From Candidatus Tumulicola sp. (lineage in GTDB: Bacteria; Vulcanimicrobiota; Vulcanimicrobiia; Eremiobacterales; Eremiobacteraceae), in contig DATNNM010000009.1 of NCBI GenBank assembly GCA_035601835.1, forward strand, positions 1-64,000: a stretch of 64,000 nucleotides of DNA, read 5' to 3'. The translations under genes and the position numbers were made by a program. Numbering within the stretch: the stretch's first letter is position 1; each line of letters begins with the position of its first letter. The notes under the pieces were generated by a model. It searched no databases and was not told the DNA's origin. It worked only from the letters and a program-made list of their open reading frames with translations. Shown in pieces: positions 5,517 through 24,911 of the stretch.

Positions 5517-7222
5517 AAAACAAACGCATCCACGCTCCCGCGCAACGGGGCATCGCCTTCGTCACCGCGCTGCTGATGTCGGTCGTCATGTTGATCCTCA
5601 TCGGCGCGCTGCTGGTCCAGATCGCCGGCGACCTCAGTGACGTCGGCAACCGCGGCTTCGACAATCGCGCGCTGTACGCGGCCGATGCCGGCATTCAGGA
5701 ATTCACGGAGCAGATGGAAGTGACGGCCGGCAACCCGGCGTCCAGCTACACGTACACCACGTCTTCGTCGGATCCGCAGGGCATGGCGTATACGGTCACG
5801 CTCGAGAAGACGTGGAATTCGAGCAACAAGTATTTTCTCGTGACGTCGCGCGGCCAAGCCGGCGGCAACGTCCGCTACGTGCGCGCCATCCTCGAGACGG
5901 TGCCCTATTCGTACTGGGGCAACTTCACGATCTCCGAGTGTTTCAAGAACGGCGGCGGGCGCTGTCAGCACTATTACATCCAGGACGAGGCGATCACGGG
6001 ACCGGTGTATTCCGGCGGCCCGATGCACATCAACTACAGCTCGACTCCGGGGCTTCTGCCGATCTTCCTCGGCAAGGTCCGCACGGCTCAAGTCCCGATT
6101 TGGAACGACCAGGCGCCGGCAGGATCAAGCTCGCCAGATTCGGCCACGCCGAGTCCCGACGGCGCTTGGCACAACGTTCTACAGGGCGGCAAGCCGGATT
6201 TTTTGGTCGATCCGAACGGGCTGCAGCTGCCGGGCGCGGACAAGAATTTCATTCTCGCGAGCGAGGCCTGGGCGGGCAATAGTTCCAGCCTGACGCAGTC
6301 GAGCGGCTACGTCGCGCCGTCTTCAGGCAAAGGTTTGTACGTGAATCAGTCGCTTGCCAACTCGGCAGGGCCGAGCAGCGCGATCGCAAGCGGGCTGTAC
6401 ATCTACGGCGACGTAAACATGACCTCGCAGGCGCAATCCCCCAACGTGGATCCGGGCAACAACCAGACCTTCACCTTCACGCCGGTCGCCGGTGACCCGA
6501 ACTCGATCCCCGGCTCGTACACGGTCAATCTCAATTTCAGTTCGAATCAGACGACGGTGAACTATTACGCGCCTCCCGGACGACCGGGGGTGTCGAGCCC
6601 GACGAGCACGCTCACCTACACCGGATTGCCCAACGGTCAGCAGGTCAACGCGTCTGCAGGACACCAGGCCAACGGCGCCATCTTCGTCGACGGCAGCGTC
6701 AATTTGGGGCAGAACGGCACGACCGATTACATGCACGGCCAATTCACCCTGGGCACGCCCGATCCGCCGGTGAACGGCGAGACGATCTCGCTGCTCGGCA
6801 ACCTGAAGTACCGAGACGATCCGCGCATCGACCCGGCCTCGACCGACATGCTCGGCGTCTGGGCCAACGACGTGCTGATCAAGGACAAGGTCGATCAAAA
6901 CGTCGAGTTCGACGGCAACCTGCTGACGGGGTCCAATGGTGAATGCACGACGACGTCAGGGTCGAGTCCGTGCGGCGACGGCACGTGGTACAACCCCGAC
7001 ATCGCCTCCTCGGGCAACTTGGGCGATTGGACCATCTATGGAAGCCTGGTCGAGAACATCCCCGGTTTCCAGGGCGACCCCATCGGCGGCGCCAACCAAA
7101 AGGGCTACGCGGATCAATACCGCTATGACGCGCGCGCCGCGGTCGTGCCGCCGCCGTTTTTCCCGGACACGAATCTATACTTCGTGATCGCTTGGCAGGA
7201 CCTCGGCGTAAACCCGCCCTAA
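5513..7222 (+). CDS. PilX-like pilus assembly protein, unusually long
   Basis: The N-terminus (MKNKRIHAPAQRGIAFVTALLMSVVMLILIGAL) matches PilX-type proteins: basic leader, Gly before the hydrophobic helix, and the AADAGIQEF motif around residue 62 that typifies this family. Known PilX proteins are usually under 250 residues; this one is 569, with a C-terminal 400 residues rich in Gly, Ser and Asn that may be a beta-rich extracellular domain. It starts on ATG 5513 overlapping the upstream stop by four bases. Membership in the minor pilin operon is secure; the role of the extension is unknown (adhesion or a PilY1 substitute is conceivable). Confidence 0.78.
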   Translation: MKNKRIHAPAQRGIAFVTALLMSVVMLILIGALLVQIAGDLSDVGNRGFDNRALYAADAGIQEFTEQMEVTAGNPASSYTYTTSSSDPQGMAYTVTLEKTWNSSNKYFLVTSRGQAGGNVRYVRAILETVPYSYWGNFTISECFKNGGGRCQHYYIQDEAITGPVYSGGPMHINYSSTPGLLPIFLGKVRTAQVPIWNDQAPAGSSSPDSATPSPDGAWHNVLQGGKPDFLVDPNGLQLPGADKNFILASEAWAGNSSSLTQSSGYVAPSSGKGLYVNQSLANSAGPSSAIASGLYIYGDVNMTSQAQSPNVDPGNNQTFTFTPVAGDPNSIPGSYTVNLNFSSNQTTVNYYAPPGRPGVSSPTSTLTYTGLPNGQQVNASAGHQANGAIFVDGSVNLGQNGTTDYMHGQFTLGTPDPPVNGETISLLGNLKYRDDPRIDPASTDMLGVWANDVLIKDKVDQNVEFDGNLLTGSNGECTTTSGSSPCGDGTWYNPDIASSGNLGDWTIYGSLVENIPGFQGDPIGGANQKGYADQYRYDARAAVVPPPFFPDTNLYFVIAWQDLGVNPP

Positions 7223-12732: not shown

Positions 12733-13256
12733 GGTTTCGCAACCCCCGCCAGATGCTGCGCCCATTTCGCTGGGTCGAAAGCGTCACGTCGATTTCGCTT
12801 GACGAACTGAAGGCTCAGGGGATCCGCGCGATCATCATCGATCTGGACAATACGCTCGTCGGGTACAGACTCAAGGAGCCGGTGGCGGAGGTTGCGGCGT
12901 GGGTCCGGCGGGCGCAAGAGCTGGGCTTGGCAGTCGCGATCGTGTCAAACAACGTGCGCGCGTGGGTGAGCAGCATCGCCGAGCTGATGGGCATCGTGAC
13001 CTACGTGCACAACGCGCTCAAACCGCTGCCGTTCGGCGTGATCAAAGCCGTCAAGCAGCTGCGCGTTGCTCGCTCGGAGGTGGTGGTCGTCGGAGACCAG
13101 ATGTTCGCCGACGTGCTCGCCGCCAAACTGTTGGGCATCAGCGCGATCCTCACGGACCCGATCGAGCGCTCGGAGCACCGCGCCATGTGGCTGGTGCGCG
13201 CGCTCGAGCGCTTCATGCTCTTGGGCACCAAGCGTCACGTGCCCCCAAGCAGCTAA
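12729..13256 (+). CDS. YqeG-family HAD-type phosphatase
   Basis: A 175-residue HAD hydrolase. Motif I is DLDNT with D38 and D40, motif II the VSNN near 74, motif III the Lys of NALKP near 98, motif IV GDQMFADV near 118. Length and the N-terminal RPFRWVESV agree with the YqeG IIIA family, whose substrate is phosphatidylglycerophosphate in some lineages; with a lipid kinase directly upstream, a phospholipid role is plausible. It starts on GTG 12729 overlapping the kinase stop and converges on the EAL gene with a 4-base overlap. Confidence 0.87.
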   Translation: MRFRNPRQMLRPFRWVESVTSISLDELKAQGIRAIIIDLDNTLVGYRLKEPVAEVAAWVRRAQELGLAVAIVSNNVRAWVSSIAELMGIVTYVHNALKPLPFGVIKAVKQLRVARSEVVVVGDQMFADVLAAKLLGISAILTDPIERSEHRAMWLVRALERFMLLGTKRHVPPSS

Positions 13257-15550
13257 GCGCTGCGGGCGGCTAGCCACGACGTGAAGCCTCCGAGCGGCAA
13301 GGGATGACAAATCGCAAATCCTTGCGCGTAACGGCAGCAGCGTTGCCGCAGCCACTCGAGCTCCTCGGGCCGCTCCACGCCTTCAGCCAGTGACTTAAAA
13401 CCAAAGCGCTCGGCGATGGAGATGATGGTTTCGGTGATCACTTGGTCGTGGGGATCGCTCAGCAGTTCGGAGACGAAGCTCCGATCGATCTTGACGATGT
13501 CGATCGGCAACCGCTTCAGGAAGGATAGCGAGGAATATCCCGTACCGAAATCGTCGATCGCGATCTGCACGCCGAGGCGCCGCAGGGCCCGGCAAACGCG
13601 CCGCGTCGCCTCGACGTCTCGCATCGCGTCTGATTCGGTGATCTCGACGCCGATGTTGCTCAACGCCACTCCATTGCGAGCGGCGTGGGTGAATGCGCGG
13701 ATCAGCTTCGGATCGCCCGCTTGGCGGCCCGAGAGATTGAAGAACAGTCGGAAGCCGGGCCGCCCAGCGCTCAACTCCCTGGCGTCGGCAAATGCTCTCC
13801 GCATCACCCAGGCGTCGATGCTCGTGATGATGCCGCTCTGCTCCGCGAACGGGATGAAATGACTCGGCGCAAGGAGCCCTCGCACGGGGTGATTCCAGCG
13901 GATCAAGGCCTCGCAGCCGGTGACCTCGCCGGTGCTCACCTCGATGTGGGGCTGATAATAGAGCGTGAACTGGTCGCAGCCGATCGCCTCGCCGATCTCG
14001 TTCCGAAGCGCGGCGCGGTGCTGCGCATTGGCCTCCATGCCGGCCTCGTAGAAGATGACCGAGCCGTGTCCAAGCTCCTTAGCGGCGAACAGCGCTGCGT
14101 CGGCATGCGAAAGGATGGCGTCGATGTCCGAACCATCCTCCGGAGCCAGCGACACCCCGAGGCACGCGGTGCGTGCGATGAGTCCCTTTCCTTCACGCTC
14201 GCCGGTCGCGAACGAGTGTGCGAAGACCTGCGCGAAGACCAGCGCTCGAGAGCGGAGGAATTCCAGGGAGATCGGATTCGCGACATAGACGGCGAAGACG
14301 TCGCCGCCCACGCGACCAACCATCTCGCCGCGAGATGCTCGTTTTAAGAGAGCGTTGCCGATCTCGACGAGCAAGGCGTCGCCGATCGTCGTTCCGTACG
14401 ATTCGTTGATTTCGTGAAAATCGTTGACGTCGACGAGGATGACCCCAAAGCGGGAACTTGCACGCGTTGCCACACCGACTTGCGATCGGAATTGGGATCG
14501 GTTGAGGAGCCCAGTCAGGATATCGTGGGACTCCTGGTATTGGATCCGCTCGAACTGCCAGCGCTGTTGCACGTGATTTGCGAAGAATGACGCGAGAACT
14601 TCGACGTATGCGAGTTCGTTCGGTCCTAATGGCTTGCTTGTCGGTTTGGCGGATGAAAAGGATACCCCCCAGGTCGCACCGCCGGCGATGAACGTCGTGA
14701 CGACGAAGGCGCGCGTGCCGCTTTCGCGCTCGAGCGCGCTCGAATAATCGCTGGCTTGGATGTCGTCCCACGATCGCGCACCGCCGCCCTCTCTCAGGAT
14801 CCTGCCGATGGCCGTCGTCTCCATCGGAATGATCGACCCTGCGTGGGCACGAGAATCAGAGAGAAGGGGTTCGGAAGAGTCGCTGAGCGCCTCCACGATC
14901 AAATTGGTTCCGCCGACGCGCCATAGGTTTCCCCAGGAAGCCTGACCCGGCCAAATGGCGGCAGCGGCCTGACCGAGCATGGCAAGCCACAACTCTTCTT
15001 CGCGCAGGCTCGGATCGTTGACGAGTCGCCACAGTTCTTCAAGCCGCTCGGCGTGCTGCCGCGAGCGCTCTTCCGCCTGTTCAGCCGCTATGCGCGCCCG
15101 CGTCTCGGAGTATTCGAGGGAGCCCTCGAGGTGCTTCCGTTCCCTGGCGTCGCGGACGGCACGTTGTACGGCGCTCGCTAAACGCGTCAGGTTCGACTTC
15201 AAGACGTAGTCGACCGCGCCGCTTTGGAGAGCCGTGACGGCCCGGTCTTCGCTGATCGTACCAGACACGAAGATCAGTGGCGTCTTCGGGTACGCCTTTC
15301 GAACGATGCGCTGCGCCGTGAAGCCATCGAAGCCCGGGAAGCTGACATCGCACAGGATCACGTCGGGGGCAAAGGTGGTGAGTGCGGCGGTCAGTTCCGC
15401 TTTGTCCGCGGCGATCACGCACTCCGTCGCAACCCCGGCGCGACGAAATTCCATCGTCGCCAATTCGGCGTCGATCGGCGAGTCATCAATGATGAGGATC
15501 TTGATCGTGCCGTCAGGCAGAGGCGCCAGCCTCTCGGCGATCGCGTTCAC
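13253..15550 (-). CDS. response regulator: receiver-GAF-GGDEF(degenerate)-EAL
   Basis: I place the start at GTG 15550-15548, overlapping the upstream TAG by one base; longer in-frame sequence merely runs through the neighbouring gene. The 765-residue protein has a receiver at 15-130 (acceptor D68 in LCDVSF), a GAF-like region about 170-330, GGDEF about 335-500 and EAL about 520-765. The GGDEF signature is GGDVF (415-419), so cyclase activity is doubtful. The EAL half keeps EAL 547-549, N605, DDFGTG from 666, K687 and E723, so it is probably an active c-di-GMP phosphodiesterase whose input is phosphotransfer from the operon kinases. Confidence 0.9.
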   Translation of the reverse strand: MNAIAERLAPLPDGTIKILIIDDSPIDAELATMEFRRAGVATECVIAADKAELTAALTTFAPDVILCDVSFPGFDGFTAQRIVRKAYPKTPLIFVSGTISEDRAVTALQSGAVDYVLKSNLTRLASAVQRAVRDARERKHLEGSLEYSETRARIAAEQAEERSRQHAERLEELWRLVNDPSLREEELWLAMLGQAAAAIWPGQASWGNLWRVGGTNLIVEALSDSSEPLLSDSRAHAGSIIPMETTAIGRILREGGGARSWDDIQASDYSSALERESGTRAFVVTTFIAGGATWGVSFSSAKPTSKPLGPNELAYVEVLASFFANHVQQRWQFERIQYQESHDILTGLLNRSQFRSQVGVATRASSRFGVILVDVNDFHEINESYGTTIGDALLVEIGNALLKRASRGEMVGRVGGDVFAVYVANPISLEFLRSRALVFAQVFAHSFATGEREGKGLIARTACLGVSLAPEDGSDIDAILSHADAALFAAKELGHGSVIFYEAGMEANAQHRAALRNEIGEAIGCDQFTLYYQPHIEVSTGEVTGCEALIRWNHPVRGLLAPSHFIPFAEQSGIITSIDAWVMRRAFADARELSAGRPGFRLFFNLSGRQAGDPKLIRAFTHAARNGVALSNIGVEITESDAMRDVEATRRVCRALRRLGVQIAIDDFGTGYSSLSFLKRLPIDIVKIDRSFVSELLSDPHDQVITETIISIAERFGFKSLAEGVERPEELEWLRQRCCRYAQGFAICHPLPLGGFTSWLAARSA

Positions 15551-15993
15551 TATTTTGGAACCATGTTGACCATCAGCCAGTACATCCCGATCTTTGCGAC
15601 GGAGTCCACAAGATCTCCGAACTGGATCGGCTTGGTGATGAAGCCGTTGACCCCCAGCCGATAGCTCTCGACAAGGTCGCGTTCCTGATTTGACGAGGTC
15701 ATCACGACGATCGGAATCCGGCGAGTTTTCTCGTCCCCCTTCAGATCGCGCAGTACGTCCAGCCCGTCGAGGCGCGGCATCTTCAGGTCGAGCAGAATCA
15801 GCTTTGGGACTTGATGCGGATTTCGGATTTCGTAGGTCCCCTTGCAACGGATGAAATCCAAAGCTTCCACGCCGTCCTGAACCCAGAACAACTTATTGAG
15901 AAAGTTGTTCTTCTTCAGCGCGCGCACCGTCATCTCGGCGTCGTTGTGATTGTCCTCCACGAGAAGGATCTCGATATTGTCGAAGTCGTTCAT
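15550..15993 (-). CDS. CheY-like single-domain response regulator, Rcp1-like
   Basis: A 147-residue stand-alone receiver: acidic pocket EDN near 13-15, phospho-acceptor D69 in LLDLKMPRLDG, Thr in MTSSN and Lys in TKPIQF. The FWVQDGVEALDF stretch is typical of Rcp1-type partners of phytochrome-like kinases. ATG overlaps the upstream kinase stop (ATGA). It is a paralogue of the regulator at 16733-17179, about three quarters identical by eye, indicating a duplicated kinase-regulator module. Confidence 0.93.
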   Translation of the reverse strand: MNDFDNIEILLVEDNHNDAEMTVRALKKNNFLNKLFWVQDGVEALDFIRCKGTYEIRNPHQVPKLILLDLKMPRLDGLDVLRDLKGDEKTRRIPIVVMTSSNQERDLVESYRLGVNGFITKPIQFGDLVDSVAKIGMYWLMVNMVPK

Positions 15994-16736
15994 ATAACAC
16001 TTTCTTTGGGCAGGCCGAATGAAAAGGTAGCGCCATCGCCGAGTCGAGCATCGGCCCAGATCGTGCCGCCGTGGCGTTGGACGATCCGCTTCGCCATGGC
16101 AAGCCCGACGCCGGTACCGGGGAACTCAGGCCGACGATGGAGCGTTTGGAAGACACCGAAGAGCTTGCCGGCTTGCTGCATATCAAATCCGACCCCGTTG
16201 TCGCGGACGTGATAGACGACGCGAGCCGCATCAAGAGCAGCCCAGACCTGGAGCTGCGGAGCGGATTGCTTGCTCGAGTATTTGACGGCGTTGGAGATCA
16301 AGGTCGTCCACACTTGGCGGAGCAGCGCGCGGTCCCCGCGCACGGCCTGGAGATCGGCCACTTCGACCATCGGTTGCGGCCGGCCAGCGAGCTGTAACTG
16401 TTCGGCCACGACCCCTTGGACCAAGCCCATCATGTCGACCGTGACGCTCTCCATCGCGTGGCGGCCGAGGCGCGAAAGTGCGAGCAGGGCGTCGATCATG
16501 TCCACCATGCGCACCGATTCGCTTTGGACGACCGAGAGAAGCCGGCGGCCCTCCTCGTCGAGCGCAGAGCCGTAGTCATCCACGACAGCGCGCGCGTATC
16601 CCATGACGGCGCGCACGGGAGCGCGCAGGTCGTGGGATACCGAGTAGCAGAGGCTCTCCAAATCCGCGTTGACGACTTCGAGCTCGGCGCTTAACCGCGC
16701 GTTGGCGCTCTCGAGGCCTTGGACGGTCGCGTTCAC
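15990..16736 (-). CDS. sensor histidine kinase, no obvious sensory domain
   Basis: A short kinase: coiled lead-in 1-30, HisKA with H35 in SVSHDLRAP, and HATPase_c with N-box ISNAVKYSS, G1 DNGVGFD and G2 GTGVGLAMAKRI. GTG 16736 is preferred as start because it overlaps the previous stop as GTGA, the junction style used through this operon; GTG 16760 is an alternative. There is no transmembrane segment or recognised sensor, so it must be activated by a partner or act in the same complex as the larger kinase. The phytochrome-type HisKA pairs well with Rcp1-like regulators. Confidence 0.88.
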   Translation of the reverse strand: MNATVQGLESANARLSAELEVVNADLESLCYSVSHDLRAPVRAVMGYARAVVDDYGSALDEEGRRLLSVVQSESVRMVDMIDALLALSRLGRHAMESVTVDMMGLVQGVVAEQLQLAGRPQPMVEVADLQAVRGDRALLRQVWTTLISNAVKYSSKQSAPQLQVWAALDAARVVYHVRDNGVGFDMQQAGKLFGVFQTLHRRPEFPGTGVGLAMAKRIVQRHGGTIWADARLGDGATFSFGLPKESVI

Positions 16737-17179
16737 GTCACTTCGGTCCGATTGACGCACAACCAGAACATCCCGATTTGCGCCACCGTCTCGACGAACG
16801 CCCCGAACTGCACCGGCTTGACGACATAGCCGTTAGCCCCGAGCCGATAGCTCGCGGTGATGTCGCGTGTATGATTTGACGAGGTCATTGCAACGACCGG
16901 AATCGCACGAGTTCGCGCGTCCTTCTTCAGCTCGCGCAGGACGTCGAGCCCGTCAAGACGCGGCATCTTCAAGTCGAGGAGGATCAACTTCGGGAGTTGC
17001 TGCGGATCGCGGCTCTTAAAGTCGCCCTCGCAGCGAAGAAACTCCAACGCCTCGACGCCGTCCTGGACCCAAAACACCTTGTTGAGGAAATTCCCCTTCT
17101 TCAACGCGCGCATCGTCATTTCGGCGTCGTGCTTACTGTCCTCGACGAGGAGGGTCTCAACGTCATCGAAGTCGTTCAC
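16733..17179 (-). CDS. CheY-like single-domain response regulator, Rcp1-like
   Basis: A 148-residue receiver with EDS near 13-15, acceptor D69 in LLDLKMPRLDG, MTSSN and VKPVQF. It starts on an ATG overlapping the stop of the repeat-containing kinase (ATGA) and ends overlapping the start of the second kinase (GTGA). It is closely similar to the receiver at 15550-15993. Single-domain receivers of this kind act by protein contact or as phosphorelay intermediates, here perhaps towards the EAL protein. Confidence 0.93.
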   Translation of the reverse strand: MNDFDDVETLLVEDSKHDAEMTMRALKKGNFLNKVFWVQDGVEALEFLRCEGDFKSRDPQQLPKLILLDLKMPRLDGLDVLRELKKDARTRAIPVVAMTSSNHTRDITASYRLGANGYVVKPVQFGAFVETVAQIGMFWLCVNRTEVT

Positions 17180-18969
17180 TTGTCATTTCCGATCGGCAAA
17201 CCAAATGAGAATGTGGCTCCTTCGCCAAGCCGGGCATCGGCCCAAACCGTGCCGCCGTGACGTTGGATGATCCGCTTTACGATTGCGAGGCCCACTCCGG
17301 TGCCTTCGAACTCATCGCTTCGGTGAAGGCGCTGAAAGACGCCGAAGAGCTTATCGGCGTACTTCATGTCGAAGCCGACCCCGTCGTCTTGCACGTGATA
17401 GACGACGCGAGACGCTTCCTGCGTCGCCCAAACGCGCAGTTGTGGATCTGCTTTCTTGCTCGAGTATTTGATCGCGTTGGCGAGCAAGTTCACCCACACT
17501 TGGCGCAGCAGGACGCGGTCACCGCGCACGACGGGAAGGTCGGGTATGACGAAGATCGAGGCCAGCTGGCCGGCCGCTAGCGCCTGCTCGGCCGCGACCT
17601 CCCGGGCCAAGCTCGTCATGTTGACCGGCGCGTTCACCAAAGGCTGGCGCCCCAGTTGCGAAAAGGCGAGCAAGTCGTCGATGAGATCGCCCATCCGCAA
17701 CGCCTCGCTGGCGACGACGGAAAGAAGACGCCGGCCTTCGTCGTCGAGTTGGGAACCGTGGTCCTCTTCGATCGAGTGCGTGTAGTTCAAAACGGCGCGA
17801 AGCGGTGAGCGGAGGTCGTGGGAAACCGAATAGCTGAAGCTCTCCAATTCGGCGTTAAGAGCTGTGAGGTCGGCCGCATGCGCATGCAACTCTTCTTCGG
17901 CCATGTTCGTTCGGACAAGCTCGGCAGTGGCTTTTCCCCGAGCGACGTCATCGCGTTCGATCGTACGCTCGGCCAGACGTTGCTTGAGTTCCGCGTTGGT
18001 GCGCGCCAGCTCGGTGAGCGCTTCGTCCCGTGCGACGTCGTCGCGTTCGATCGTGCGCTCGGCCAGACGTTGCTTGAGTTCTGCGTTGGTGCGCGTGAGC
18101 TCGGCGAGTGCTTCGTCGCGAGCGACGGTGTCGCGTTCGATCGTGCGCTCGGCCAGGCGTTGCTTGAGCTCCGCGTTGGTGCGCGCCAGCTCCGCGAGGG
18201 CCTCGTCCCGAGCGACGTCATCGCGTTCGATCGTGCGCTCGGCGAGACGCTGCTTCAGTTCTGCGTTGGTGCGCGTGAGCTCGGCGAGAGCTTCGTCTCG
18301 CGCGACGGTGTCGCGTTCGATCGTGCGCTCGGCCAGACGTTGCTTGAGTTCCGCGTTGGTGCGCGCCAGCTCGGTGAGCGCTTCGTCCCGAGCGACGTCG
18401 TCGCGTTCGATCGTGCGTTCGGCGAGACGCTGCTTCAGTTCTGCGTTGGTGCGCGTGAGCTCGGCGAGTGCTTCGTCGCGAGCGACGGTGTCGCGTTCGA
18501 TCGTGCGCTCGGCGAGACGTCGCGTCAGCTCGGCGTTGGTCCGCGTGAGTTCGGTGAGTGCTTCGTCCCGAGCGACGTCGTCGCGTTCGATCGTGCGCTC
18601 AGCGAGACGCTGCTTCAGTTCTGCGTTGGTGCGCGTGAGCTCGGCGAGGGCTTGGTCCCGAGCGACAGTGTCGCGTTCGATCGTGCGCTCGGCGAGACGT
18701 CGCGTGAGCTCAGCGTTGGTCCGCGTAAGTTCGGTGAGCGCTTCGTCTCGAGCGACGGTGTCGCGTTCGACCGTGCGCTCGGCCAGGCGTCGCTCGAGCT
18801 CTGCGTTAACGGGCGCGGGCTCGGCGAGGGCTTGGTCCGGGGTGAGGTCGTCGGGCGTTATCGTCTGCTCTATTGCATGCGTTGGCGCGACGACGTGGAG
18901 GAGCACCGGAGATTTCGCGCGCGGTTTCGGCGGTTTCGGCGCGCCCGCAACGGAGACGGATCGGGCCAC
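17176..18969 (-). CDS. histidine kinase with ten 30-residue coiled-coil repeats
   Basis: The preferred start is GTG 18969 with AAGGA 10 bases upstream; a TTG at 19083 would add 38 residues lacking character. The 597-residue cytoplasmic protein has a Pro/Ala-rich head, ten tandem repeats of 30 residues (53-352; consensus RTNAELKQRLAERTIERD then (D/T)VARDEALAEL(T/A)), then HisKA with H384 in SVSHDLRSP and HATPase_c (GTGVGLAIVKRI). The repeat is charged and heptad-compatible, so it probably forms a long dimeric rod. No PAS, GAF or phytochrome domain is seen. It heads the five-gene signalling operon. Confidence 0.88.
   Translation of the reverse strand: MARSVSVAGAPKPPKPRAKSPVLLHVVAPTHAIEQTITPDDLTPDQALAEPAPVNAELERRLAERTVERDTVARDEALTELTRTNAELTRRLAERTIERDTVARDQALAELTRTNAELKQRLAERTIERDDVARDEALTELTRTNAELTRRLAERTIERDTVARDEALAELTRTNAELKQRLAERTIERDDVARDEALTELARTNAELKQRLAERTIERDTVARDEALAELTRTNAELKQRLAERTIERDDVARDEALAELARTNAELKQRLAERTIERDTVARDEALAELTRTNAELKQRLAERTIERDDVARDEALTELARTNAELKQRLAERTIERDDVARGKATAELVRTNMAEEELHAHAADLTALNAELESFSYSVSHDLRSPLRAVLNYTHSIEEDHGSQLDDEGRRLLSVVASEALRMGDLIDDLLAFSQLGRQPLVNAPVNMTSLAREVAAEQALAAGQLASIFVIPDLPVVRGDRVLLRQVWVNLLANAIKYSSKKADPQLRVWATQEASRVVYHVQDDGVGFDMKYADKLFGVFQRLHRSDEFEGTGVGLAIVKRIIQRHGGTVWADARLGEGATFSFGLPIGNDK
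17914..18813 (-). repeat. ten tandem 90-bp coding repeats
   Basis: Ten in-frame 90-bp units encode residues 91-390 counted from TTG 19083. Units alternate between variants ERDT and ERDD, and between T and A before RTN, so part of the array looks like duplication of a 180-bp pair. Near-identical DNA between units (for example the block GCGTTCGATCGTGCGCTCGG) indicates recent expansion and predicts length variation between strains. Confidence 0.93.
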
Positions 18970-19232
18970 GTTGTGCCATCCTTGGGGGGATCGGCGTGTG
19001 CCATGCGATCCGAAATGGTCGGCTGCGGCAGGTGCGGGACTACCGGCAGTGTTCGAAAGGCGACACGAGTGCGAATGAGTCAAAAATCAAAACGCCAATT
19101 TTTTGATTCTTATATAGCAAGCATGCCCACGTTTGGGACGCTTCAAACCATCTTTGTGCGCGGGTCGTACTTATGTGTCCCAGAAAGCCACGCCGGAGGC
19201 ATTCGCTCGACAACTTCTTAAGTCACCGGCGC

Positions 19233-19616
19233 ATGTTTCAGCTCGCTCACTTGACTGATTACGGCTTGCTGTTCCTTAGACTTATGGCCGGCGCGATCTA
19301 TGCCAACAGCGGCTACAACGACCTCAAGGATCCGGACGCGCGCAGCAAAAGCATCGGAATGCCCAAGAGCTTCACGGTTTTCCTCGCCGTGGCCGAGCTG
19401 GCCGGCGGAGTTGCGCTTATCTTGGGTGTGCTCCAGCAGCTGGCCGCGATCGGATTGATCCTCGTCATGCTCGGCGCGATCCAGAAAAAGATCTTCGTGT
19501 GGAAGACCGGGTTTTGGGGCAAAGATGGATTTGGCTGGTCGTACGACTTGACGCTGATCTCGTTGCTGCTCGTCATCCTGTTCACCAACGGCGGCAGATT
19601 CGTGCTCTTGCGGTGA
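19233..19616 (+). CDS. DoxX family membrane protein
   Basis: A 127-residue protein with four hydrophobic helices beginning LTDYGLLFLRLMAGAIYANSGYNDLKDP, the DoxX first-helix pattern with its conserved small residues, and VFLAVAELAGGVALILGVLQQLAAIGL for helices two and three. ATG 19233 is preferred over ATG 19173 because the additional 20 residues are very basic and not family-like. DoxX proteins are inner-membrane, often linked to redox homeostasis; the function is not settled. Its stop overlaps the next GTG (GTGA). Confidence 0.85.
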   Translation: MFQLAHLTDYGLLFLRLMAGAIYANSGYNDLKDPDARSKSIGMPKSFTVFLAVAELAGGVALILGVLQQLAAIGLILVMLGAIQKKIFVWKTGFWGKDGFGWSYDLTLISLLLVILFTNGGRFVLLR

Positions 19617-20092
19617 ACGCCTCGGAAATCTTCATCCTCGCGTTTGCGCTCGGCATCGTCGCCGGGCAGCGGTCGCTCATGGCGCCCACGGTCGTCAGTT
19701 GGGCTGCGCGCCTCGGCTGGCTCAATCTCCAACATAGCTGGTTGGCCTTCTTAGGCTACGCGCTGACTCCTTACATCTTTTCAGCGTTCGCGATTCTCGA
19801 ACTAATCATGGATAAGCTTCCGAAGACGCCGAGCCGGAAAACACCGCCGGTGTTCGCTGCTCGTATCGTCTTGGGCGCATTCTCGGGAGCAGCACTATGC
19901 ATGGCGGCGCGGCACTCTGCCGCAGCGGGAGCACTTCTCGGCGGTTTGGGCGCGGTGGCGGGCACTCTCGGAGGGTACGAGGCCAGAACGCAGTTGGTCA
20001 AAGGCCTTGGGGCGCCGGATTTCGCGGTCGCTCTTGTGGAGGACATTGTGGCGATAGGCGGCGGGCTTTTCGTCGTCTCGCGATTCGCATAG
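19613..20092 (+). CDS. DUF4126-like membrane protein
   Basis: GTG 19613 overlaps the DoxX stop by four bases. The 159-residue product (VNASEIFILAFALGIVAGQRSLMAPTVVSWAARLGWL) has about four hydrophobic segments, with the GQRSLMAP motif early and GAFSGAALCMAAR...GALLGGLGAVAGTLGGYEAR Gly-rich helices in the second half. This matches DUF4126-type inner-membrane proteins of unknown function. Coupling to DoxX implies a shared membrane role. Confidence 0.72.
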   Translation: MNASEIFILAFALGIVAGQRSLMAPTVVSWAARLGWLNLQHSWLAFLGYALTPYIFSAFAILELIMDKLPKTPSRKTPPVFAARIVLGAFSGAALCMAARHSAAAGALLGGLGAVAGTLGGYEARTQLVKGLGAPDFAVALVEDIVAIGGGLFVVSRFA

Positions 20093-23249: not shown

Positions 23250-24911
23250 ATGAGTGGACTTCCGGTAACCAGCGCTCTCGCTGAACACGTCTTTCCGATT
23301 TTGACGCCAGAACAGATTCGTCGCTTTGCGCCACACGGGCGGGTGCGCGCGATTCAAGCCGGCACCGTGCTCTACGAACCGGGAGCCACCCCCGTCCCGT
23401 TCTTTGTCGTCGTCTCCGGTGAGCTCGAGGTCGTCCGCCTTTGGGCCGGGACTGAAACCCTTGTCACCGTTTTCGGCCCCGGGAAGTTCACGGGCGAAGT
23501 CAACTCTCTCTCGGGTCGGCCCGCCATCTTGCGCTTGCGCGTCTCCAAGTCCGGCGAGGTGATCGAGCTCGATCGTCAGCAGATGCTGGCGTTGTTGCAG
23601 ACCGACGCCGAGCTTGGCGAGATCTTGATGCGAGCGTTCATTCTCCGCCGGGTGGAGCTGGTAGCGGCTGGTATGGGTGACGTCGTGCTCCTGGGATCGA
23701 CGCATTCCGCCGGTACGCTTCGCATCAAAGAATTTCTGATGCGCAACGGCCATCCGTATTCCTACATCGACCTCGAACGGGACCCTGACGTACAGAACCT
23801 GCTTGAGAGTTTCCATATCGAGGCCGGCGAGATACCGGTGGTGATCTGCCGTGGTCAGGTCGTGCTTCGAAATCCGACGAATCAGAAAGTCGCGGATTGC
23901 CTTGGCTTCAACGAAACGATCGACCAAACGCACATGCGCGATCTGGTCGTCGTCGGCGCAGGTCCCTCAGGCTTGGCCGCGGCCGTGTACGGCGCATCGG
24001 AAGGCCTTGACGTGCTGGTGCTGGAGACAAACGCGCCAGGCGGTCAGGCCGGCTCCAGCTCTCGCATTGAAAATTATTTGGGATTCCCCACTGGGATCAC
24101 GGGGCAGGAGCTCGCCGGCCGGGCCTTCACCCAGGCGGAAAAGTTCGGCGCACAATTGCTGATGGCGACGGGCAAACGGCTCTGGTGCGGCCCCAAACCA
24201 AACATCGTCGAAGCCGACAACGGCGCTCGCATCCCGGCGCGTGCCATCGTGATCGCCACCGGAGCCGAGTATCGAAGGCCACGCTTAGAGAACTTGGCCC
24301 GCTTCGAGGGCGCCGGTATCTACTACGGAGCAACCTTCGTTGAGGCGCAATTGTGCACCGGAGACGAAGTGGTCGTCGTAGGCGGAGGGAATTCCGCAGG
24401 GCAGGCAGCCGTGTTCCTGGCGCGCACGGCGTCGCGGGTATATATGCTCGTCAGGTCAGCGGGTTTGGCCGAGAGCATGTCGCGCTATCTGATCCGCAGG
24501 ATCGAGGAGACGCCGGCGATCGAACTGCGAACGCACACTGAGCTCACCGCGCTTCGAGGCGATGATCACCTCGAATCGGTCACTTGGCAAAACAGCGAAA
24601 CCGTTGCGAGCGAAGAGCACGCGATCAGTCACGTGTTCCTCATGACCGGCGGCGCTCCGAACACGCGCTGGCTTGACGGTTGTGTCGCACTTGATGAGAA
24701 AGGCTTCATCAAGACGGGTCCCGATCTATCGCCGGAGGATCTGCGCGCTTCCAAATGGCCCCTGGCGCGGCAGCCGTTCTTGCTTGAAACCAGTGTGCCG
24801 GGCGTATTTGCCGTCGGCGACGTGCGCGGCGGGAGCATCAAGCGCGTCGCATCCGCCGTCGGCGAAGGGTCGATTGCAATCTCTTTCGTTCACCGGGTAC
24901 TGCAGGAATAG
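23250..24911 (+). CDS. cyclic-nucleotide-binding / glutaredoxin-like / thioredoxin-reductase-like fusion
   Basis: A 553-residue cytoplasmic fusion. Residues 1-130 form a cNMP-binding beta roll (PGKFTGEVNSLSG phosphate-binding cassette near 78-90); 143-215 a glutaredoxin-like fold (LLGSTHSAGTLRIKEFLMRNGHPYSYIDLE) whose CxxC is replaced by THSAG; 230-553 a thioredoxin-reductase-like flavoprotein with GAGPSG (236-241) and a second NADPH fold GGGNSAGQAAVF. The usual redox CxxC of thioredoxin reductase is missing: the aligned segment reads YYGATFVEAQ. FAD end motif GVFAVGDVRGGSIKRVA is present. GGGGAG precedes ATG 23250. It probably couples a nucleotide signal to NADPH oxidation. Confidence 0.9.
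   Translation: MSGLPVTSALAEHVFPILTPEQIRRFAPHGRVRAIQAGTVLYEPGATPVPFFVVVSGELEVVRLWAGTETLVTVFGPGKFTGEVNSLSGRPAILRLRVSKSGEVIELDRQQMLALLQTDAELGEILMRAFILRRVELVAAGMGDVVLLGSTHSAGTLRIKEFLMRNGHPYSYIDLERDPDVQNLLESFHIEAGEIPVVICRGQVVLRNPTNQKVADCLGFNETIDQTHMRDLVVVGAGPSGLAAAVYGASEGLDVLVLETNAPGGQAGSSSRIENYLGFPTGITGQELAGRAFTQAEKFGAQLLMATGKRLWCGPKPNIVEADNGARIPARAIVIATGAEYRRPRLENLARFEGAGIYYGATFVEAQLCTGDEVVVVGGGNSAGQAAVFLARTASRVYMLVRSAGLAESMSRYLIRRIEETPAIELRTHTELTALRGDDHLESVTWQNSETVASEEHAISHVFLMTGGAPNTRWLDGCVALDEKGFIKTGPDLSPEDLRASKWPLARQPFLLETSVPGVFAVGDVRGGSIKRVASAVGEGSIAISFVHRVLQE

Follow-up and report, generated by a model that had tools for sequence, protein, structure and literature searches.

The first kinase of a signalling operon in Candidatus Tumulicola sp. 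carries ten tandem copies of a 30-residue unit, each of which contains the core motif of the S-helix. We think there is about an even chance that this array is an oligomeric rod of tandem S-helices, an exchangeable N-terminal module that would hold the kinase and set its resting state. The array lies on a contig of which we analysed the first 64,000 nucleotides (the window), and it is found on kinases, SpoIIE proteins and a GGDEF-EAL protein of related genomes in numbers that vary from 2 to 12. The features that we discuss are collected in Table 1.

Table 1. Features of the kinase operon and proteins that carry the repeat unit (genomes other than that of the window are given by handle)
Feature	Genome	Positions	Strand	Basis
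Kinase 1 gene from its likely GTG start, AAGGA nine bases upstream	window	17176..18969	-	ORF, start codon and upstream sequence
Half-unit PDDLTPDQALAEPAPV, decayed C-terminal half of an eleventh unit, with helix-breaking prolines	window	18808..18858	-	residue and base matches
Array on kinase 1 (HisKA-HATPase_c), ten units of 90 bp / 30 residues, consensus NAELKQRLAERTIERD[D/T]VARDEALAEL[A/T]RT	window	17908..18807	-	Tandem Repeats Finder, unit table, codon-position bias, helix model
Alternating T-type (ERDTVAR; units 2, 4, 6, 8) and D-type (ERDDVAR; units 3, 5, 7) units	window	18088..18717	-	Tandem Repeats Finder, DNA nearest neighbours
D-type unit 9, continuing the alternation	window	17998-18087	-	
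HisKA and HATPase_c catalytic core after the linker ALNAELESFSYSVSHDLR	window	17179..17857	-	PF00512 1.7e-13, PF02518 2.8e-24
Stand-alone receiver, Rcp-like response regulator, overlapping the kinase 1 gene	window	16733..17179	-	PF00072 8.2e-19, coordinates
Kinase 2, catalytic core 62% identical to that of kinase 1, without repeats	window	15990..16760	-	Pfam, sequence comparison
Second stand-alone receiver	window	15550..15993	-	Pfam
REC-GGDEF-EAL protein, last gene of the run	window	13253..15847	-	Pfam
HisKA-HATPase-REC-Hpt hybrid kinase, 4 units	G110			
GGDEF-EAL protein, 3 units, NN gap	G110	L132:4161-6542, NN at 6308		
SpoIIE protein, 11 units	G020			
SpoIIE protein, at least 7 units, across a contig break	G049			
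SpoIIE protein (scanned as SpoIIE only), 12 units	G099			
SpoIIE protein with membrane-helix-like N-terminus, 2 units	G127	L136:4992-5430		
SpoIIE protein with membrane-helix-like N-terminus, at least 6 units, NN gap	G111	L134 about 6900-7070, NN at 6719		
REC protein ending in the repeat at a contig end; PAS-kinase-REC protein starting in the repeat at another contig end	G111			

A ten-unit repeat in the first kinase of an operon

The ten units are in frame, in the NAEL register, within the open reading frame at 17176-19083 on the minus strand. This mechanical reading frame extends to a TTG at 19083, and the GTG at 18969 is the likely start of kinase 1. Tandem Repeats Finder reports 10.2 copies of 90 bp at 17937-18853 with a score of 1223 and no indels, as well as 5.0 copies of 180 bp with a score of 1364, which exceeds that of the 90-bp period. 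Units 1-9 differ from one another at 5-20 of 90 bases, and the most diverged is unit 10. When each unit is paired with its nearest neighbour at the DNA level, units 2, 4, 6 and 8 and units 3, 5, 7 and 9 form two alternating types. Because of these two types and the higher score at 180 bp, duplication of a 180-bp pair is a fair reading, and the array probably grew by copying such pairs. The preliminary description had already reported ten tandem 90-bp units and two alternating variants pointing to expansion of a 180-bp pair. Both claims are borne out, and the array that it placed at 17914-18813 is the same one shifted by 6 bp.

Departures from the unit consensus fall 18, 13 and 58 times on codon positions 1, 2 and 3 (binomial p = 8.5e-10), and from this excess at third positions we conclude that the array evolves as protein in the kinase frame. 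Coding on the opposite strand, in the open reading frame at 17818-19221 (+), was ruled out because it is the kinase frame whose third positions hold the variation. Before unit 1 there is a decayed half-unit of seventeen residues, PDDLTPDQALAEPAPV and the one residue that precedes it, in which 8 of 17 residues and 33 of 51 bases match the unit; none of 20,000 shuffles matched equally well.

The repeat is absent from the domain libraries searched (Pfam and NCBIfam) and from the solved-structure searches, where by sequence the array gave only a match at chance level. Pfam matches inside the array to RecX_HTH1, GYF_2, Fapy_DNA_glyco and others were rejected as scores amplified by repetition; no individual stretch passed by itself. 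Judged by title and abstract, the papers that a literature search on Eremiobacterota together with histidine kinases returned treat other subjects.

Kinase 1 is a histidine kinase of the HisKA type by its PF00512 and PF02518 domains, its SHDLRSP motif and a fold match to solved kinases, the nearest being RpBphP2 (8f71), with a TM-score of 0.82 of the target. HisKA and HATPase_c are the only domains that Pfam credits, and it recognises nothing N-terminal to the array, so the earlier statement that kinase 1 has no recognisable sensor domain holds at this level of search. Kinase 1, described earlier as the first kinase of the operon, is the first gene of an overlapping run on the minus strand that encodes a kinase, a receiver, a second kinase, a second receiver and a REC-GGDEF-EAL protein. 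Elsewhere in the window, DoxX-like and DUF4126 membrane proteins are encoded divergently from the kinase operon at 19173-20092, and a cyclic-nucleotide-binding domain is fused to a pyridine-nucleotide disulphide oxidoreductase at 23250-24911.

The unit on other signalling proteins and its conservation

Of 149 Eremiobacterota genomes searched with two units, 7 contain arrays; a profile search added only three borderline single matches. In the 13 other genomes of the window's family that the search covered, no array was found. Beyond the phylum, the search took in the best 80 loci of one contig scan. Viral contigs, phages and plasmids gave no relatives of the array.

The proteins that carry the unit differ in their outputs (Table 1). 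In those SpoIIE proteins that were scanned over their full length, SpoIIE is accompanied by HATPase_c_2. The two contig-end pieces in G111 are probably one REC...PAS kinase with the repeat between its parts, which we infer by joining them. The SpoIIE parts from G020, G099 and G127 are 78-81% identical, and the SpoIIE orthologues as a group (72-80% identical) carry 2, 11, 12 and at least 6 units, so that unit number does vary when related genomes are compared, as had been anticipated; some of these copy numbers may be affected by assembly. In two SpoIIE versions, the array immediately follows a membrane-helix-like segment (LIVSVGVGLCIVAVIVYAW; VFGAIGAGVCIVVVLAYVW); they contain 2 and at least 6 units, compared with 11-12 in the soluble versions. 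Several assemblies break or hold NN inside arrays (C138/C281 in G049, C73 and C23/C24 in G111, C114 in G110, and the contig ends at L135/L150 and L137/L138), and published copy numbers are therefore likely underestimates.

Two comparisons bear on what the array replaces. Outside the window's own genome, the closest kinase in the phylum (G042, L004:685-2208), whose core is 57% identical to that of kinase 1, has two PAS domains where kinase 1 has the array. At the N-terminus of the window's REC-GGDEF-EAL protein is a REC domain; the G110 homologue, 63% identical, carries an array in that place. By these comparisons, the array takes the place of input domains (PAS and REC) in two independent cases. 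The G042 kinase precedes an Rcp-like receiver and a REC-PAS protein, a counterpart of the window operon.

Selection on the unit was estimated from 53 units in nine array segments of seven genomes. Comparisons between arrays give a dN/dS of 0.10, and those within an array 0.14. Residues E14, R15, D16, A19 and A23 never vary, and R7, L8, A9, E10, R11, T12, R20, E26, L27, R29 and T30 almost never do. Between the arrays of the window and G020, mean pN is 0.076, compared with 0.176 for rpoC of the same genomes, while pS is comparable (0.49 vs 0.43), a comparison that averages non-orthologous pairs of units and in which homogenisation between units is possible. On these substitution patterns, the amino-acid constraint (purifying selection) on the unit is strong. 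Since the unit is common to other signalling proteins and is under strong purifying selection, we regard it as a module and not as a spacer specific to this kinase. The dS between the same two arrays is 0.8, which is no lower than that of rpoC (0.64) but falls short of the values (up to 2.0) seen when SpoIIE genes are compared inside one family. These values do not establish that recent horizontal transfer alone caused the similarity between arrays, and the array may have been transferred between families.

Helix, conserved face and alternative readings

Modelled alone with AlphaFold2 on a seven-sequence alignment, the array is predicted as one helix that spans residues 2-314 of 315 with a mean pLDDT of 86. 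In the model of full-length kinase 1, the array lies in long helices with two low-confidence breaks. Numbered from the GTG start, the first 53 residues of that model are predicted to be disordered, the helix starts at residue 54 and unit 1 starts at residue 55.

Conservation over 40 distinct units peaks at a period of 3.75 residues (p = 0.0006; 0.014 over all periods), which is the sole significant helical periodicity; a repeat of 30 allows only periods of 30/k, among which 3.75 is the only near-helical one, so that this peak shows a helix with one conserved face and does not measure its pitch. At 3.75 residues per turn, the 30-residue unit makes eight turns. The conserved face consists of L4, L8, R11/T12, R15, A19, A23, E26/L27 and T30, and the variable face of A2, Q6, I13, D17, D21, L24/A25 and A28. 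The hydrophobic moment of the unit is 0.06 at 3.5, 0.00 at 3.6 and 0.75 at 3.75 residues per turn, the last of which is not significant against shuffles (p = 0.22). Hydrophobicity alone thus gives no significant helical period, and the packing of the core would therefore be unusual. Among hydrophobic periods, 5.0 is the strongest (p = 0.002, or 0.045 when all periods are considered). A pentapeptide-repeat reading of this period was ruled out by the lack of a Pfam match, the predicted helix and the one of six pentads that has no hydrophobic centre.

In the reading that we favour, an oligomeric rod of tandem S-helices, recurrence of the S-helix core (N-x-E-L-x-x-R-L-x-E-R-T) every 30 residues would give a continuous helix of ~300 residues, which would measure about 45 nm when fully straight, taking a rise of 1.5 A for each residue. 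Packing would most likely join two or more chains, perhaps with a right-handed twist, along the conserved face (L4, L8, R11/T12, R15, A19, A23, L27 and T30/N1), and the packed rod would hold the kinase as an oligomer and fix its resting signalling state. The rod would stand in for an input domain and hold the outputs together, with any input perhaps acting at the N-terminal end. Gain or loss of whole units would change the length of the rod without rotating the output, and such phase-neutral steps of eight turns would explain how copy number could drift from 2 to 12 while the units keep their sequence. Counting against the rod, hydrophobicity shows no helical period of significance, the S-helix matches only about half of the unit, nothing recognisable precedes the array in the window protein, and dimerisation of a linker alone would need one unit, not ten.

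We put forward only tentatively a broader proposal, which we find somewhat doubtful, that the array is a transferable multi-S-helix module, so far in few Eremiobacterota, through which two-component, SpoIIE/anti-sigma-type and c-di-GMP outputs join one shared helical assembly, homotypic or heterotypic, and that copy number is a length or valency able to evolve while helical phase stays the same. If true, this would be a natural plug-and-play signalling rod, new as a repeat family. Known S-helices occur singly as linkers, and their part in keeping outputs off is still under debate; 2 to 12 near-identical copies on orthologous outputs, in steps of nearly whole turns, would amount to a natural experiment on linker length, phase and valency. 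The unit is a candidate repeat for building helical rods, and arrays of this type break short-read assemblies and are missed by domain libraries.

The array could instead be a multivalent docking scaffold, the main rival reading, which we consider unlikely. Each unit would bind a partner (e.g., a receiver or another repeat protein), copy number would set stoichiometry or avidity, and the helix would be a display surface. The charged residues R7, E10, R11, E14, R15, D16, R20, E26 and R29 are near-invariant in 53-54 units while third positions are free, a constraint that exceeds what a generic rod needs. Many near-identical copies also resemble repeated binding sites, and a unit shared by kinase, phosphatase and c-di-GMP outputs could gather them on one partner. 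However, the loci read show no recurrent partner gene next to the arrays, the invariant residues lie mostly on one face of the helix and are compatible with helix-helix packing too, and there are orthologues with only two units.

The preliminary description had read the array as a variable-length coiled-coil rod of heptad-compatible helices that could set spacing or a signalling threshold. The long continuous helix in that reading is supported by the AlphaFold2 model; its heptads are not, because the array lacks the a/d pattern and 3.5 periodicity of a heptad coiled coil, the unit is 28+2 residues and 30 is no multiple of 7. A canonical heptad spacer, i.e., a parallel dimeric rod with a distance-only role that tunes spacing or threshold by its length, is in our judgement quite improbable. 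It would account for the varying copy number, and in the SpoIIE versions of G127 and G111 there is an N-terminal membrane-helix-like segment that a rod would space. The protein in the window, however, has no anchor to be spaced from, and surface positions of the unit are conserved as much as core positions, which a pure spacer does not need.

Slippage could also have expanded the array in frame with little function, the product being tolerated since it is helical and in phase. The recent pair expansion in the window, the patchy distribution among genomes and the decayed terminal unit are all in keeping with such a history. We nonetheless hold it to be very unlikely, as every comparison of two arrays gives a dN/dS of ~0.1. 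This holds also for the old array of G099, where dS among its own units is ~2.3, near saturation, and the protein sequence has been kept (dN/dS 0.09).

A monomeric single alpha-helix rod of the ER/K type, held by i,i+4 salt bridges, would suit a predicted single helix with 45% charged residues, and we give it hardly any credence because opposite-charge pairs at i,i+4 are not enriched (8 observed vs 9.6 in shuffles, p = 0.70) and there are 15 like-charge pairs. Least credible is an array inflated or collapsed in a metagenome-type assembly, since, despite the breaks and NN inside the arrays of relatives, the window contig crosses the whole array without N, the units differ at 5-25 bases each and can be placed by an assembler, and independent assemblies carry the same unit, although the exact unit count of the window array is uncertain.

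Relation to the S-helix and other known systems

The defining mark of the S-helix is its ERT signature, flanked by conserved N, E, R and E, and the element is found upstream of histidine kinases, PP2C, GGDEF and EAL domains (PMC1592074; Anantharaman, Balaji and Aravind 2006), where it is described as a parallel dimer that prevents constitutive activation. Its outputs are those found here, namely histidine kinases, PP2C/SpoIIE, GGDEF and EAL. The repeat unit shares with it the ERT, the upstream N and L, the R before the central leucine and the E two residues after the T. All ten window units carry N1..L4..R7 L8. E10 R11 T12. E14, and the core NxELxxRLxERT is present in each. Residues 1-14 fit the S-helix, so that only about half of the unit matches, and the second half has no S-helix counterpart.

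We built an S-helix HMM only from 30 S-helix-type linkers of other phyla and scored each unit against 20,000 composition-matched shuffles. The window units score 7.8-13.2 bits, with 3-72 of 20,000 shuffles scoring as well, and the NAELEQRLAERT units (E5Q6) of other arrays score 17.5-18.8 bits, with none of the shuffles scoring as well. The positions at which the HMM aligns are the N, L, R, ERT and following E given above. Removal of DDVARDEALAEL from the unit would restore the canonical S-helix spacing (RT-x-E-x4-N-x-E-L), which suggests that the unit arose from an S-helix through a gain of about 12 residues followed by tandem repetition. The threonine of the last ERT lies 48 residues from the phospho-acceptor histidine in the window kinase and 41 in the G110 hybrid kinase, compared with 19 (29 cases) or 26 (2 cases) in other kinases. 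At 3.63 residues per turn, the surplus of 29 and 22 residues comes near to 8 and 6 whole turns, a post hoc match that is only suggestive.

The array also departs from the S-helix in several respects. The S-helix is a single element of ~40 residues with five continuous heptads, whereas the array repeats its core every 30 residues in 2-12 near-identical copies with no heptad register. S-helices normally connect a sensory domain on their N-terminal side to a catalytic domain on their C-terminal side, and the window array has no recognisable N-terminal sensor. By motif comparison, then, the array is S-helix-like in its core and its output partners and differs in length, heptad register and position.

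A periodicity of 15/4 = 3.75 is that of right-handed pentadecad coiled coils (PMC4786415). The array resembles these in its 3.75 residues per turn, and two pentadecads make 30 residues; it differs in that its pitch is deduced from conservation.

The nearest functional parallel is the HAMP arrays of fungal class III hybrid kinases (Nik1/Os-1 type; PMC5159414), in which a cytosolic kinase likewise carries N-terminal tandem helical transmission units whose number varies between species. HAMP units are two-helix domains of about 50 residues that are far more diverged among themselves than the array units, and Pfam scans of the array proteins gave no match to a HAMP domain; the likeness is one of possible mode of action, not of descent. 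Photoreceptor kinases and diguanylate cyclases have coiled-coil linkers (PMC6798134, PMC12805367) whose register and phase set the state of the output and in which changes by whole turns are tolerated. Those sensor-effector linkers are short and heptad-based, whereas the array extends over ~300 residues and changes in 30-residue steps of eight turns.
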